From positions 124,001-188,000 of the forward strand of contig NZ_AHCF03000003.1 in the NCBI RefSeq assembly GCF_000238275.3: a stretch of 64,000 nt of DNA. The letters run 5' to 3'. Position numbers and translations under genes: made by a program. This document shows, piece after piece, positions 12,564 through 21,642 of the stretch (positions are counted from its first letter, which is position 1; every line of letters starts with the position of its first letter). This stretch comes from Pseudoalteromonas undina. GTDB lineage: Bacteria; Pseudomonadota; Gammaproteobacteria; Enterobacterales; Alteromonadaceae. The notes under the pieces were generated by a model. The model was not told the origin of the DNA. It made no database searches and saw only the letters and a program-made list of their open reading frames with translations.

Positions 12564-15230
12564 ATGTCTGAAGTCAATAAAATTGACGTAGACGCGCTAG
12601 AAACACAAGAGTGGTTACAAGCTCTTGAATCGGTTGTGCGCGAAGAAGGTGTTGAACGAGCTCAGTTTTTACTTGAGCAAGTGTTAGAACAAGCCCGTTT
12701 AGACGGTGTTGATATGCCAACAGGCATTAACACAAACTACGTTAATACGATTCCGGTTGATCAAGAACCTGCCTACCCTGGTGATGTAAATCTTGAGCGC
12801 CGTATTCGTTCAATTATTCGCTGGAACGCGATTATGATTGTATTGCGTGCATCGAAAAAAGATCTCGACTTAGGCGGCCATATGGCGTCTTACCAATCGT
12901 CTGCTGCATTTTACGAAGTGTGTTTTAACCATTTCTTTAAAGCGCCAAATGATGTTGATGGCGGCGATTTAGTTTATTACCAAGGTCATATTTCTCCGGG
13001 TATTTATGCGCGTGCATTTGTTGAAGGGCGTTTAAGTGCTGAACAGCTTGATAATTTCCGTCAGGAAGTAGATGGTAAAGGCCTACCTTCTTACCCTCAT
13101 CCTAAATTAATGCCTGAGTTTTGGCAGTTCCCAACGGTATCTATGGGCTTAGGTCCAATTTCTTCAATTTACCAAGCGCGTTTCTTAAAGTACTTAGATG
13201 GCCGTGGATTAAAAGACACTAAAAACCAACGTGTATATGCGTTTTTAGGTGATGGTGAAATGGATGAGCCAGAATCACGTGGTGCTATTTCTTTTGCTGC
13301 CCGTGAAAAGCTAGATAACCTATGTTACTTAGTTAACTGTAACCTACAGCGCTTAGATGGCCCTGTAATGGGTAACGGTAAAATCATTCAAGAGCTAGAA
13401 GGCCTATTTAAAGGCGCTGGCTGGAATGTTATTAAACTTGTTTGGGGCAGCGGTTGGGATATTCTGCTTGCTAAAGACACCACAGGTAAATTACTACAGT
13501 TAATGAACGAAACTGTTGATGGTGATTACCAAACATATAAAGCAAAAGATGGCGCGTACGTACGTGAACATTTCTTTGGTCGTTACCCAGAAACAGCAGC
13601 ACTTGTTGCTGATATGACAGATGAAGAAATTTTCGCCCTTAAGCGCGGTGGTCATGAGCCTTCAAAACTGTTTGCTGCATTTAAAAAAGCAGAAGAAACG
13701 AAAGGTCGTCCAACAGTAATCCTTGCTAAAACAGTAAAAGGTTACGGCATGGGTGAAGCGGCTGAAGGTAAAAACATTGCGCACCAAGTTAAGAAAATGG
13801 ATATGTCGCATGTGGCTCACTTACGCTCACGTTTAGGCTTAGATGATTTAGTATCTGAAGAGCAATTGAAAGAGCTACCATACTTAGAGCTTGAAAAAGA
13901 TTCTCCAGAGTATAAGTACCTTCATGCACGTCGTGATGCGCTACAAGGTTACACGCCAACACGTATCGCTAAGTTTTCTGAAAAGTTACAGTTACCAGAA
14001 GTAGATGCGTTCAAGCCATTACTTGAAGAGCAAAAGCGTGATATTTCAACCACTATGGGCTTTGTGCGTGCACTTAATATCTTATTAAAAGATAAAGGTA
14101 TTGGTAAAAATATTGTGCCAATTATTGCCGATGAAGCACGTACTTTTGGTATGGAAGGTTTATTCCGTCAAATCGGTATTTACAACCCACATGGCCAAAA
14201 TTACACCCCTCAAGACCGTGATATTGTTTCTTACTATAAAGAAGCAACCTCAGGGCAGGTATTACAAGAAGGGATTAACGAGCTAGGTGCAATGTCGTCA
14301 TGGGTTGCTGCTGCAACATCTTACAGTACCAACGACTTACCGATGATCCCATTCTACATTTACTACTCTATGTTTGGTTTCCAACGTGTTGGTGACATGG
14401 CATGGATGGCAGGGGATCAACAAGCACGTGGTTTCTTATTAGGTGCTACAGCGGGTCGTACAACGCTAAATGGTGAAGGCTTACAGCACGAAGATGGCCA
14501 CAGCCACATTCTTGCAAACACTGTACCTAACTGTATTTCTTACGATCCTACTTATGCATTTGAAGTAGCGGTTATCGTGCAAGACGGTATTCGTCGTATG
14601 TACGGTGAAGAGCAAGAAAACATTTACTACTATCTAACGCTAATGAACGAAAACTACCATCAGCCAGCAATGCCAGAAGGCGCTGAAGAAGGTATTCGTA
14701 AAGGTATCTACAAGCTAGAAAGCTACGAAGGTAAAAAAGCCAACGTACAGCTATTAAGCTCAGGTACTATCATGACTGAAGTGCGTAAAGCTGCGGCAAT
14801 TTTAAGCGAAGAGTTTGGTATTGCGTCTGATGTTTACTCAGTAACTTCATTCAATGAACTTACCCGTGATGGACAAGATGTTGAACGTTTCAACATGCTT
14901 AACCCAGAAAGCGAGCAAAAAACGCCATACATCACTAGCGTATTAAACGATTCAGTAACTGTTGCTGCAACGGATTACATGAAAAACTACGCAGAACAAG
15001 CGCGTTCATTTATTCCAAGCAATAACTACAAAGTATTGGGTACAGATGGTTACGGTCGTTCAGACAGCCGTGAAAACCTACGTCGTCACTTTGAAGTTAA
15101 CGCAAGCTACGTGGTAGTTGCGACATTATCTGAACTTGCTAAACGTGGTGAAGTTGAAAAGTCAGTGGTTGTTGAAGCAATTAAAAAATTCAACATCGAC
15201 ACTAACAAACTAAATCCACTGTACGCATAA
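12564..15230 (+). CDS. aceE: Pyruvate dehydrogenase E1 component, homodimeric type
   Basis: 888-residue thiamine-diphosphate enzyme (E. coli 887) that decarboxylates pyruvate and acetylates the lipoyl groups of E2. The ThDP/Mg motif is [19 protein letters not shown] with the distal Asn in [12 protein letters not shown]; the catalytic-loop region includes GQILE-like [15 protein letters not shown], and the C-terminal transketolase domain ends near [11 protein letters not shown] strong GGAAACC lies before the ATG. First gene of aceE-aceF, 10 bp ahead of aceF. Codon use is the strongly biased type of highly expressed genes. Confidence 0.98.
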
Positions 15231-15240
15231 GAGGTTTGCA

Positions 15241-17157
15241 ATGAGTATTGAAATTAAAGTACCTGATATCGGTGGCGATGAAGTAGAAGTAACCGAAATA
15301 CTAGTGAGCGTTGGCGATAAAGTTGAAGTTGACCAATCACTATTAAGTGTTGAAGGTGATAAAGCTGCGATGGAAGTACCTGCTGAACAAGCCGGTACGG
15401 TAAAAGAAATTAAAGTAAATGTGGGTGACACTGTTACCACAGGCACTTTAGTGTTCATCTTTGAAGGTGAAGCGCAAGACTCTGCTGCTGACTCTAAAGA
15501 AGCTGAAAAAACCGAGGAAGCAGCACCTGCTGCGCCATCGGCTTCATCAACCAAAGAAGTTACTGTGCCAGATATTGGTGATGACGAAGTTGAAGTAACT
15601 GAAATTATGGTTGCAGTTGGTGATAGCGTAGAAGAAGAGCAGTCTATCTTAAACGTTGAAGGCGACAAAGCGGCAATGGAAGTACCAGCACCCTTTGCCG
15701 GTACAGTAAAAGAAATTAAAGTAAATACTGGTGACAAAGTGAAAACGGGTTCATTAGTATTTGTTTTTGAAGTGTCAGGTGGTGATAACCAAAGTGCTCC
15801 TGCAGCTGATTCAAAAGCACAAGAGAAGCCTGCTGAACAAACATCGGCATCAAGCACTAAAGAAGTTAGCGTGCCTGATATTGGTGATGACGAAGTTGAA
15901 GTAACAGAAGTGATGGTTGCGGTTGGCGATAGCGTAGAAGAAGAGCAATCTATCTTAAACGTTGAAGGCGACAAAGCAGCTATGGAAGTACCGGCGCCGT
16001 TTGCAGGTACTGTTAAAGAGATTAAAGTAGCGACTGGCGATAAAGTTAAAACTGGCTCATTGATTTTTGTATTTGAAGTGGCGGGTAGTGCACCAGCTGC
16101 AGCACCTGCAGAAAAATCAGCACCAGCGCCTAAAACAGAATCTAAGCCGGCAGCTCAGACTGAGTCAAAACCAGCAGCATCATCTGCTAAAGCAAGCTCT
16201 GAAAGCTTTGAAAACAATAGCGCTTATGCACATGCATCGCCAGTGGTTCGCCGTTTAGCACGTGAGTTTGGTATTAACCTTGCCAACGTTAAAGGCACGG
16301 GTCGTAAAAACCGTGTTGTTAAAGAAGACGTGCAAAACTATGTTAAGCAACTGGTTAAGCAAGTTGAGTCTGGTCAAGTACCAGCAGCTAAAGGCAATGC
16401 TGGTGGCGGTGAGCTTGGTTTAATTCCATGGCCAAAAGTTGATTTTGCTAAGTTTGGTGAAATTGAAGAGAAAAAACTCTCTCGTATTCAAAAGCTGTCA
16501 GGTAAAAACTTACACCGTAACTGGGTACAAATCCCACATGTTACCCAGTTTGATGAAGCGGATATCACGAGCCTTGAGCAGTTCCGTAAAGAGCAAAATG
16601 CCCTTAACGAGAAGAAAAAGCTGGGTGTTAAAATTACGCCATTAGTATTTGTAATGAAAGCAGCTGCTAAAGCGCTTGCTGAGTTCCCTACATTTAACTC
16701 ATCGCTTTCAGAGGATGGCGAAAGCTTAATCCTTAAAAAGTACATTAATATTGGTGTAGCGGTTGATACGCCAAATGGCTTAGTTGTACCAGTGTTTAAA
16801 GATGTTGATAAAAAAGGCATTATTGAACTATCTCGTGAACTAATGGAAGTATCTGCTAAAGCGCGTGATGGCAAGTTAAGTTCATCAGATATGCAAGGTG
16901 GTTGTTTTACTATTTCAAGCCTAGGTGGCATTGGCGGTACGGCATTTACGCCGATTGTGAATGCGCCTGAGGTGGCAATTTTAGGTGTGTCAAAATCTGA
17001 AATGAAGCCTAAGTGGAATGGTAAAGAGTTTGAGCCTAAGCTAATGGTTCCACTTTCAATGTCTTACGACCATAGAGTGATTGACGGTGCACTTGCTGCA
17101 CGCTTTACTGTTACTCTTGCAAGTTACATGAGTGATATACGCCAGTTAGTGATGTGA
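15241..17157 (+). CDS. aceF: Dihydrolipoyllysine acetyltransferase (PDH E2) with three lipoyl domains
   Basis: 638-residue core of the PDH complex. Three lipoyl domains (about 1-78, 103-180, 205-282) each carry [11 protein letters not shown] with the lipoylated Lys. They are joined by Ala/Pro/Glu-rich swinging linkers. A peripheral-subunit-binding domain follows (about 325-362, [20 protein letters not shown]) and then the acyltransferase domain with catalytic [11 protein letters not shown] at the end. Domains two and three are nearly the same at DNA level. Three lipoyl domains match E. coli; many relatives have two. Confidence 0.98.
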
Positions 17158-19107: not shown

Positions 19108-19794
19108 GTGACCCAGAGTTTAAAAAATTCAGTTTTAGCATTACGTGCTCAGCAAATAAGTGAATCTCGACGTGAGTTTAATGCCCGTGGTGGAAAAATG
19201 GATCGCTGTGAGCAATGCTTAATTGCCAAGCATTACTGTATTTGTGAGGACGCTGAGTACGCAAGCTGTAGCGCTGCAGTATGCTTACTTATGTATCACA
19301 ATGAAAGTTTTAAACCGTCTAATACAGGGCGTTTAATTGCGGAAATAGTGCCTGATAATCATGCGTTTCGTTGGGATAGAACCTCCCCAGATCCTGCTTT
19401 ATTAGCATTGTTGAATAATGATAAATATCAGCCTTTTGTGATTTTTCCGGCTGAAGATGTTGAAACTGATAGGGTGGTAACCCAGGTTGAAACGCATGCA
19501 GGTAAACAGCCATTGTTTATATTTTTAGATGGTACATGGCGAGAAGCTAAAAAAATGATTCGTAAGAGTCCTTATTTAGATAACTTACCTGTGCTTTCTA
19601 TTACCGCAGAAAAACTCTCAGATTACCGATTACGTGTAGCGCCCCATGCTCATCAGTTAGGAACGGCAGAAGTAGCTATTATGGTATTAGCATTGGCTGG
19701 TGAAGTTGATGCGAGCACTAAATTAGAACAGCATTTTATTAAGTTTCGCGACGCTTATTTACTTGGTAAGCGTAACAAAGGCAGGCCCGAATAA
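19108..19794 (+). CDS. tapT: tRNA-uridine aminocarboxypropyltransferase, DTW domain (YfiP/TapT)
   Basis: 228-residue cytosolic DTW-domain protein. In E. coli the family member YfiP/TapT makes acp3U47 in tRNA using S-adenosylmethionine. Visible: the N-terminal zinc-type cysteine cluster DRCEQCLIAKHYCIC (about 31-45), a SPOUT-like fold, and the signature FLDGTWREAKKM (DxTW). The C-terminal half has LGTAEVAIMVLAL. The start is GTG (19108); no better in-frame ATG with a ribosome site is seen before GGKMDRCE. Context is neutral: it is followed by the CsrB-like RNA on the other strand. Confidence 0.88.
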   Translation: MTQSLKNSVLALRAQQISESRREFNARGGKMDRCEQCLIAKHYCICEDAEYASCSAAVCLLMYHNESFKPSNTGRLIAEIVPDNHAFRWDRTSPDPALLALLNNDKYQPFVIFPAEDVETDRVVTQVETHAGKQPLFIFLDGTWREAKKMIRKSPYLDNLPVLSITAEKLSDYRLRVAPHAHQLGTAEVAIMVLALAGEVDASTKLEQHFIKFRDAYLLGKRNKGRPE

Positions 19795-19882: not shown

Positions 19883-19915
19883 AAAAGAAAAGCGCGAACC
19901 ATCTCTAGTCGCGCT
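19883..19915 (-). terminator. Terminator of the CsrB-like RNA
   Basis: Perfect stem AGCGCGA/TCGCGCT (19891-19897 and 19909-19915) with an 11-base loop. On the minus strand it is followed by TTTTCTTTT. Confidence 0.88.
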
Positions 19916-20351
19916 TGCGGAATCTTCTAACTTTGTTGCATCCTGCAATTGAACCTAATCAACTCCAATTTTTACGATCCGTGTTATTACAATATTACTT
20001 TCTAGTTCTATGTAATATAGGCTATCCGGGCCTGTCTCCATAAATTCCTAAAACATCCTGTAAGGTAAAATCTATTACCAATCCTTATTGCACATCCGAG
20101 TGCATTCCCTTTGTTACCATTCCGTTGTGTTGCCTTTAAGGCCTGTCCTTTTTGTTCCCTATCCTTTATAAACAACTATTCCGCTGTTGTTATCCATTAT
20201 GCATCATCCTGATGCTATCCCTTGTGCAACAATCCATTGCGATACTCATCCTGAGCCTGTCCTTAAATCCCTGTTATCCTAAAAACCAAACCTTGGTATT
20301 CGAGTAGTTAATCCGTTTCCATTTACTCGGTAAGCGTCGTTGCTTATTTAT
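19883..20351 (-). ncRNA. csrB: CsrB/RsmZ-type CsrA-sequestering small RNA
   Basis: The minus strand of this gene-free region contains 25 GGA triplets in about 470 bases (24 of the 25 within 19940-20325), many as AGGA, GGAT or CAGGAT. That is the form of CsrA-binding hairpin loops. A -10 TATAAT lies at 20358-20363, and a strong terminator with 7-bp perfect stem plus U-rich tract lies at 19883-19915. A GacA/UvrY-type box lies about 160 bp upstream of the -10. No open frame of note exists. By analogy with CsrB it should titrate CsrA and be activated by BarA/UvrY (GacS/GacA). Ends are estimates. Confidence 0.88.
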
Positions 20352-20357
20352 GGGTTA

Positions 20358-20363
20358 ATTATA
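20358..20363 (-). promoter_or_regulatory. -10 element of the CsrB-like RNA
   Basis: TATAAT on the minus strand, placing the start near 20351. No good -35 is seen at 17 bases, which fits a promoter that needs an activator. Confidence 0.7.
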
Positions 20364-20509
20364 GAGAGTGATTTGCAGTAAATGTAGGATAAAACCGCTT
20401 ATGGTTTATGTTCTTACAAATGAAATATTTATAAATTATCTAAAATACAATGGCTTGCTGTATTTATGGGGTGTTATGCAGGGTGTTTTTACTCATTTAC
20501 TGCCATAAG

Positions 20510-20527
20510 CGTAAGAGATATCTTACA
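20510..20527 (-). promoter_or_regulatory. GacA/UvrY upstream activating box
   Basis: CGTAAG-N6-CTTACA, with perfect inverted arms GTAAG/CTTAC (20511-20515 and 20522-20526). The GacA/UvrY/VarA consensus is TGTAAG-N6-CTTACA, found roughly 150-190 bp upstream of csrB/rsmZ starts. The distance here fits for the minus-strand RNA. It also lies 111 bp before the fbpA-like gene, so an effect there cannot be excluded. Confidence 0.8.
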
Positions 20528-20602: not shown

Positions 20603-20621
20603 ATTAATGATAATAATTATT
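20603..20621 (+). promoter_or_regulatory. Fur box
   Basis: Matches 15 of 19 positions of the consensus GATAATGATAATCATTATC. It lies 17 bp before the iron-binding protein gene, so Fe-Fur should repress this transporter operon when iron is plentiful. Confidence 0.8.
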
Positions 20622-20637: not shown

Positions 20638-21642
20638 ATGAAAAAAACACTAGCGCTTGTCGTTGGACTAATTATCTCAGCACCTGCTGTTGCAACCGAT
20701 GTTGTGAATATTTACTCATTTAGACAACCTTTTTTAATTAAACCTATTTTAGATGATTTTACACAGCAAACAGGCATTAAAACTAATGTTGTGTTTGCTA
20801 AAAAAGGCCTAATCGAGCGTGTTAAGCGTGAAGGCAAGCACAGCAAAGCAGATTTAGTTTTAACGTCTAACTTTAGTGCGTTAATTCAGTTAGAAGAGCT
20901 AAAGCTAACGCGAACTATTGATAGCGAGAAGGTTAATAAGAATGTGCCGGCTGCATTTCGTGATGGCGATGGTCAGTGGGTGGCGCTCACTAAGCGAGTG
21001 CGAAATGTTTACTCTTCAAAAGAGCGTTTAGGTCCATTACCTGAGCTGAGTTATGAAGATTTAGCTGCACCTGAATATAAAGGTCAAATTTGTACTCGCT
21101 CTGGTAAACACCCTTATAACTTAGGGTTAGTGGCTTCTATGATTGCTCATCATGGTGAAGTCCAGACTAAAACATGGCTCGAGGGTGTAAAAGCGAATTT
21201 AGCGCGTAAGCCGCAGGGAAATGACCGTGCGCAAGTGAAAGCCGTTAAAGAAGGTTTATGTAATTTAGCTTTAGGTAACAGTTACTACTTAGGTAAAATG
21301 TTGCAAGATGAAGCGCAAAAACCGTGGGCAGATGCGGTTAATATTAATTTTCCAAACCAAACTAACCGTGGTTCGCATATTAACGTATCGGGTGCGGTAA
21401 TTACTAAGTATGCTAAAAACCCTGAAAATGCCTTGAAACTTATAGAGTATATGACCGACAATAAGGCGCAAAATATGTATGCCTCGCTCAATATGGAGTA
21501 CCCGGTCAAGCCAGGTGTTAAGCTTTCAAGTTTGGTTGCATCATGGGGAAGCTTTAAGGAAGACAGCTTACCGCTTGATGAAATTAGCAAATATCGTCCG
21601 TTAGCCCTTAAGCTAATTGATGAGGTGAAGTTCGATCTTTAA
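20638..21642 (+). CDS. fbpA: Periplasmic ferric-iron-binding protein (FbpA/FutA type)
   Basis: 334-residue substrate-binding protein with signal peptide MKKTLALVVGLIISAPAVAT. The mature start VVNIYSFRQPFLIKPILDDF and the C-terminal-lobe tyrosine pair in LALGNSYYLGKM are the iron-ligand regions of the FutA/IdiA class. The domain is a two-lobe periplasmic-binding type II fold. A Fur box lies directly upstream, and permease and ATPase genes follow with a one-base overlap, making an FbpABC transporter for free Fe3+. Confidence 0.93.
   Translation: MKKTLALVVGLIISAPAVATDVVNIYSFRQPFLIKPILDDFTQQTGIKTNVVFAKKGLIERVKREGKHSKADLVLTSNFSALIQLEELKLTRTIDSEKVNKNVPAAFRDGDGQWVALTKRVRNVYSSKERLGPLPELSYEDLAAPEYKGQICTRSGKHPYNLGLVASMIAHHGEVQTKTWLEGVKANLARKPQGNDRAQVKAVKEGLCNLALGNSYYLGKMLQDEAQKPWADAVNINFPNQTNRGSHINVSGAVITKYAKNPENALKLIEYMTDNKAQNMYASLNMEYPVKPGVKLSSLVASWGSFKEDSLPLDEISKYRPLALKLIDEVKFDL

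Follow-up and report, generated by a model that had tools for sequence, protein, structure and literature searches.

A predicted CsrB-type RNA between tapT and fbpA in Pseudoalteromonas, probably an ortholog of Pf2

The DNA analysed here, referred to as the window, is a stretch of 64,000 nucleotides from Pseudoalteromonas undina (contig NZ_AHCF03000003.1), and it very probably encodes a CsrB-type sponge RNA of ~470 nt that would be activated by UvrY and would titrate CsrA. The predicted RNA lies on the minus strand of the intergenic region between a tapT-like gene and an fbpA-like gene (Table 1), and its architecture is the one expected of a CsrA sponge. From the sequence, its conservation, covariation, spacing and the presence of csrA, uvrY and barA we infer its transcription, the activation by UvrY, the binding of CsrA and the titration. 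The RNA appears to be real and conserved and was largely to be expected; its class, and probably this exact RNA, are already in print. A sequence-only reading that preceded our analysis had recognized a Csr RNA here and was right about the class, but it was unaware that Csr RNAs of the genus had already been published (PMC9927453, PMC11882849). Our data narrow the published candidates, pointing most likely to Pf2 and not to Pf1.

Table 1. Features of the tapT-fbpA region, in window positions
Feature	Position	Strand	Basis and remarks
tapT-like gene, DTW domain	19108..19794	+	PF03942, 190 bits; convergent with the RNA
Predicted CsrB-type small RNA	19883..20351	-	25 GGA; ends placed from the -10 element (5') and the terminator (3')
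Intrinsic terminator hairpin and T-rich tail	19883..19916	-	Predicted folds; 5/9 pairs changed on both sides
Invariant AAGATTCC	19919..19926	-	Flanked by the last GGA hairpin and the terminator; holds the sole TCC of the RNA
Last GGA hairpin TTGCAGGATGCAA	19936..19948	-	19 rows without a non-standard pair; two pairs gapped in one row
GGA hairpin GCATCAGGATGATGC	20201..20215	-	5 pairs formed in 19/19 rows, 3/5 changed on both sides
-10 element TATAAT of the putative RNA promoter	20358..20363	-	Sequence match; near-TATAAT hexamer in 29/29 loci
GacA/UvrY box, TGTAAG-ATATCT-CTTACG on the minus strand	20510..20527	-	1 mismatch; spacing conserved
Fur-box-like sequence	20603..20621	+	Just upstream of fbpA; 14/19 positions match
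fbpA-like periplasmic iron-binding protein gene	20638..21642	+	390.5 bits to solved FbpA 1q35; divergent from the RNA

Exactly 25 GGA triplets are found on the minus strand in the 467 nt from 19883 to 20349, and the number does not change when the stretch is extended to 20352 or 20357; this recount agrees with the 25 GGA that the sequence-only reading had given between tapT and fbpA. None of 2000 dinucleotide shuffles of the RNA reached 25 GGA (mean 13.4, maximum 23), and no other 470-nt stretch of the window that does not overlap it has more than 8 on either strand. The region had also been said to carry no usable reading frame, and indeed the longest ATG/GTG/TTG ORF within the RNA encodes only 55 aa, considering the ORFs that overlap the stretch between the ends of the two genes. 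At another place in the window, the gene 15241-17157 has a 254-aa ORF facing its start on the minus strand (15210-15974). Judged by reading, the gene appears to encode a dehydrogenase E2 with multiple lipoyl domains. The minus-strand ORF is repetitive because the E2 domains opposite to it are repetitive, and it is probably not a gene.

The two promoter elements are located where the sequence-only reading had placed them, namely TATAAT at 20358-20363 and CGTAAG-N6-CTTACA at 20510-20527, the latter with 1 mismatch to TGTAAG-N6-CTTACA. No good -35 element was seen by inspection, and a consensus promoter scan did not report the promoter; a poor -35 would be expected of an activator-dependent promoter. 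The box alone was rejected as evidence, as its occurrence is near chance: the pattern with at most 1 mismatch has 9 sites genome-wide, versus 5 for the reversed control pattern. It becomes credible because its spacing to the -10 element is fixed in the relatives. We determined this spacing in 29 loci, i.e. the window and 28 named tapT-fbpA loci, using as the box the best match at 80-259 bp from the start of fbpA and as the -10 element the best match 130-184 bp further on; a search without distance limits misplaced the -10 element in several rows. The best box has 1-3 mismatches in each of the 29 loci, and a hexamer with at most 2 mismatches to TATAAT lies 145-157 bp from it in all of them, the gap being 146 in 23 loci, 145 in 2 and 154-157 in 4. 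Restricted searching favours similar gaps, yet it cannot account for an identical gap of 146 in 23 of 29 loci. The distance from the box to the ATG of fbpA is 101-114 in 25 of the 29 loci and 137-185 in 4. We conclude from these spacings that the box belongs to the predicted RNA promoter, because its gap to the -10 element is nearly constant, whereas fbpA begins anywhere between 101 and 185 bp from it.

The predicted fold of the whole RNA is more stable than those of its shuffles (z -2.43, 0/100). That the GGA motifs lie in hairpin loops, a test proposed with the sequence-only reading, holds only in part: it is clear for some hairpins, but the mean unpaired probability in the whole-RNA fold is 0.67 for GGA versus 0.57 for all purines (0.47 for all bases), and four of the 25 GGA have values of 0.43 or lower. 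The hairpin GCATCAGGATGATGC, the GGA of which has an unpaired probability of 1.0, is among the best candidate CsrA-site hairpins. We evaluated the pairs of four helices in a 19-row alignment (the window and 18 loci). When these helices are pooled, the number of pairs changed on both sides was reached by 14 of 500 shuffles and the covariation score by 1 of 500, most of the other pairs being invariable. The pair count excludes the GGA hairpin at ~20097, which is aligned in different registers from clade to clade, as well as those at ~20235 and ~20027, which are paired in 9-14 and 15-19 of the 19 rows, respectively. Across 17 divergent rows, the last GGA hairpin has invariant inner pairs and a covarying outer pair, and together with the terminator it has 95.9% of its cells paired and 6 pairs changed on both sides (1/500 shuffles). 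As for the GGA motifs themselves, 13 are retained in all rows of a 25-row set (the window and 24 loci), two in 16-17 rows, and those at 20182, 20164, 20158 and 20048 in just 1-5. Invariant columns make up 46 of the 72 GGA columns versus 109 of the 325 others, with the last 70 nt excluded; the difference is modest for G columns alone (29/48 in GGA versus 25/53 outside).

The RNA is predicted to end in a stem-loop followed by TTTTCTTTT. A perfect-stem terminator had been claimed at 19883-19915; the terminator is there, but in the predicted folds the 10-11 pairs of its stem include a G-U and are interrupted by one bulge. A strict terminator scan did not report it, and the stem nevertheless covaries across the genus. 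Just before it and after the last GGA hairpin, the motif AGATTCC contains the sole TCC in 19 of 19 aligned rows (the TCC count is 1 in the window copy, 19883-20349, minus strand). The avoidance of TCC is weak evidence, because the base composition of the window copy predicts just ~2.4 TCC. AAGATTCC is common to all 17 divergent rows, and AAGAUUCC/AAGATTCC precedes the terminator in 54 of 54 loci checked in 41 genomes, with L125-L127 among these loci having been found by a model that contains the 3' element. By reading, AAGATTCC is absent from the Pf1-type RNA of the same genome.

In E. coli CsrB, an RNase E site is located at the place equivalent to AAGAUUCC, and the preference of RNase E is RN-WUU, which AGAUU fits. 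The last GGA pairs with the UCC of the 3' element in the unconstrained consensus fold, as an alternative to the hairpin, and it does so too in the isolated 3' piece of the window copy, the stability of which is not unusual (z -1.48). A possible function of the element, which we put forward tentatively and consider doubtful, is that of a decay switch built into the RNA and kept since the ancestor of the genus. The UCC of AAGAUUCC, positioned where RNase E cuts E. coli CsrB, would either pair with the last GGA or be single-stranded when CsrA holds that GGA in the hairpin loop, and CsrA at the last GGA would set the stability of the whole sponge. If true, a 3' device would have been conserved in an RNA that has otherwise become unrecognizable. 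The invariant element offers a cheap direct test of Csr RNA decay outside enteric bacteria. Neither the invariant AAGAUUCC nor the orthologs beyond BLAST reach were found in the main texts of the literature on Pseudoalteromonas Csr RNAs, and synteny, decay and turnover are unmentioned in the main texts of PMC9927453 and PMC11882849, whose RNase E discussion concerns Spot42.

A model of the 3' module, R2, matches 96 of 394 genomes across the order at E<=0.5. Among 26 non-genus loci from these matches, 4 have at least 25 GGA per 450 nt beside the match and 22 do not. The GGA-rich stretches obtained through this model in other genera of the order (L128, L129, L142 and L147, 25-33 GGA per 450 nt) are probably the Csr RNAs of their genera; AAGATTCC was not seen in the 70 nt inspected in these four.

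The GGA cluster is a constant feature of its place in the genus. We found 37 distinct Pseudoalteromonas loci by a tapT protein search, and each of the 28 loci with fbpA downstream of tapT has a GGA cluster between the two genes, with 13-33 GGA per 470 nt. No fbpA and no GGA cluster were found at the other nine loci, two of which (L043 and L044) end early at contig ends; in at least one of the nine (L049, P. arctica) the RNA is apparently elsewhere on the same contig. With the copy of P. fuliginea KMM 216 as the query, 71 of 108 genus genomes match at E<=0.001, the genome of the window included, and 51 match at E<=1e-5. With the window copy as the query, one genome from each of 24 other families of the order was searched, and none of them matches. 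The loci L066-L069 retain the place, the box, the GGA cluster and the 3' signature, and no DNA similarity to the RNA is left in them (best blastn E of at least 18 at one-genome size). Place, promoter spacing and 3' signature thus show the predicted RNA in genus members where BLAST sees nothing, and the published BLAST frequencies would undercount it because it occurs where BLAST detects none. One divergent counterpart, approximately at L067:5232-5738 on the minus strand, reaches 33 GGA per 470 nt; near-repeats of a unit around CAGTTTAGGACAACTGAGCTAGGACGCAAGGA, noticed by eye, suggest that the sponge grew by internal duplication.

The Rfam covariance check proposed along with the sequence-only reading went against it: on a 1301-base stretch the CsrB model RF00018 gives 21.6 bits (E 0.0012), far below its gathering score of 71 bits. 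This model has no match above its cut-off across the 4.03-Mb genome. It is plausible that annotation leaves the RNA locus blank, because nothing in the window reaches any Rfam gathering score. We rejected Rfam as the sole test, as sub-threshold scores are common in control genomes; RF00018 matches 8 of 14 such genomes at E<=10, E. coli included, and only 1 of the 8 is above the cut-off. The predicted RNA would give this genome, where the Rfam CsrB model has none above the cut-off, a regulatory RNA that is well placed. The genome encodes a single copy of CsrA (89.6 bits, cut-off 27), as well as UvrY (393.7 bits, cut-off 280) and BarA (1164.6 bits, cut-off 890). Csr/Rsm sponge RNAs, which bind and antagonize CsrA, are recognized by their GGA density, GGA motifs that are looped out or otherwise unpaired, an upstream GacA/UvrY box, an intrinsic terminator with no evident coding role, and csrA, uvrY/gacA and barA/gacS in one genome. 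The window locus has 25 GGA in 467 nt (0/2000 shuffles), a box with 1 mismatch upstream, and a terminator with no evident coding role, and its genome has the three genes, all above curated cut-offs. The idea of a CsrB-type RNA with a UvrY/GacA box is backed by the GGA density, the conserved GGA hairpins, the fixed spacing between the box and the -10 element, and a genome that contains the genes csrA, uvrY and barA.

In the mechanism that we propose, BarA would drive the phosphorylation of UvrY, and phosphorylated UvrY, bound to the box at a gap of 146 bp upstream from the -10 element, would activate a promoter with a good -10 and a poor -35. The resulting RNA, having ~25 GGA sites of which many are unpaired or lie in hairpin loops, could bind several CsrA dimers, and the mRNAs controlled by CsrA would be freed by this capture. 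It may act alongside at least one paralog, the Pf1 ortholog.

Could the locus be GGA-rich sequence without an RNA function, for instance a gene in decay or purine-rich filler? The base composition does lift the GGA expectation, as the shuffle mean indicates, but not to 25, and the position is conserved, the hairpins covary, the promoter spacing is fixed and the 3' element is invariant across the genus, so we give this explanation practically no credence. It is also very unlikely that the box, like the intergenic region as a whole, works for the iron operon, with UvrY and Fur jointly controlling fbpA and the RNA being secondary. From the box to the ATG of fbpA there are 110 bp, the Fur-like site (scored against a Fur consensus) is close to the box, fbpA encodes a true homolog of iron-binding proteins, and fbpA is present within ~1.5 kb on each side in 50 of the 54 RNA loci checked. 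However, the box keeps a distance of 145-146 to the RNA -10 element in 25 of 29 loci versus 101-185 to the fbpA ATG, and 4 of the 54 loci, in 3 genomes, have the RNA with neither fbpA nor tapT within ~1.5 kb on each side. The cross-talk with a Fur-controlled iron operon proposed earlier is thus unsupported, the spacing of the box being fixed to the RNA promoter and not to fbpA. The tapT-like gene has no NCBIfam match, and no NCBIfam family reaches its cut-off for the fbpA-like gene.

Taking the locus as a CsrA sponge, we compared it with the Csr RNAs published for P. fuliginea BSW20308. Pf1 was reported with a putative GacA site and 21 GGA (Wen et al. 2023, PMC9927453); Duan et al. 2025 added Pf2 (21 GGA) and Pf3 (9 GGA) and gave 25 GGA for Pf1 (PMC11882849). 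Promoter activity and a glycogen assay in E. coli have been published for all three (PMC9927453, PMC11882849), and for Pf2 and Pf3 also gel shifts with CsrA (PMC11882849). Homologs of Pf1, Pf2 and Pf3 were found in 37.5%, 45.1% and 69.9% of 672 genomes, those of Pf1 and Pf2 not beyond the genus, and Pf2 lies between D172_RS02375 and D172_RS02370, the products of which are not named in the main text (PMC11882849). We found no other literature on Csr RNAs of Pseudoalteromonas besides a gene-editing paper (PMC12628799) and passing mentions of the genus.

The window RNA was first assumed to be Pf1, and this was rejected: the Pf1 18-mer box is at another locus in KMM 216, and the tapT-fbpA locus of that genome has a different box and 23 GGA. 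This published box, the written orientation of which is unstated in the main text (PMC9927453), occurs exactly in 3 of 108 genomes. In KMM 216 it is at C1:96948, upstream of another RNA with 25 GGA, which is the ortholog of a second GGA-rich RNA in the genome of the window (L002). The second exact box, in G031, is at the same kind of locus, while the third, in EB27, is at the tapT-fbpA locus on the tapT strand and counts against a simple assignment. The second CsrB-type RNA of the window's genome (L002:1361-1720, i.e. G000:C3 ~779900-780260, outside the window) contains 20 GGA, and a degenerate box, TGTGAG-N6-CCTACA, can be read at L002:1181-1198. Based on these comparisons, it is most likely the ortholog of Pf1.

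Because Pf1 is most likely the other locus and Pf3 has just 9 GGA, we hold with good confidence that the window RNA is the ortholog of Pf2, the only one of the three that fits by size. It would be somewhat surprising if it were instead a further Csr RNA not yet in print, though the tapT-fbpA locus of KMM 216 has 23 GGA versus the 21 given for Pf2, the products flanking Pf2 are unnamed, and the nemA landmark misfits: the sole nemA-like match in G061 (45% identity) does not fit the Pf2 placement, and no nemA-like gene was found at the predicted place, 3440-3700 kb of G061. The yfiA landmark, in contrast, fits Pf2, with a ratio of position to D172 gene number of 0.913 kb for the yfiA-like gene versus 0.914 kb for the RNA, counted back from the end of contig G061:C1 in a direction chosen after the fact and for a match of 33% identity that is unsure as to paralog. 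The frequency of 51/108 genomes at E<=1e-5 also agrees with the 45.1% of Pf2, but frequency separates Pf1 and Pf2 poorly (49/108 with a Pf1-type query versus the published 37.5%). The predicted place of Pf3, 790-1030 kb of G061, has no stretch with at least 8 GGA per 200 nt, and the rest of G061 has such stretches at ~2952.9 kb (8) and ~3002.6 kb (11, coding). Thirteen other loci with a GacA-like box, 10 in the genome of the window and 3 in KMM 216, have at most 11 GGA per 470 nt.

Among the known systems, Pf2 (BSW20308, PMC11882849) shares with the window RNA the genus, the intergenic location, the richness in GGA, the conserved upstream element, the promoter and the terminator; neither has a reported match outside the genus, and their frequencies within it are similar. 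The two differ in GGA number, 21 for Pf2 versus 23 at the tapT-fbpA locus of KMM 216 and 25 in the window, and their identity is probable. Pf1 (PMC9927453) is of the same class and has a GacA-type box upstream, but it is most likely another locus, with its ortholog at G000:C3 ~779.9-780.26 kb. E. coli CsrB (RF00018) resembles the window RNA in its many GGA hairpins, in the UvrY/BarA input, here judged by the genes present, and in the stretch between the last GGA site and the terminator, while the sequence similarity is little (21.6 versus 71 bits). In another marine genus, Aln1a-c of Alteromonas macleodii Te101 are described, in the part of PMC5864184 available to us, as CsrB-C analogs, comprising three RNAs with three start sites in one 404-bp intergenic region as opposed to the one long RNA predicted here.
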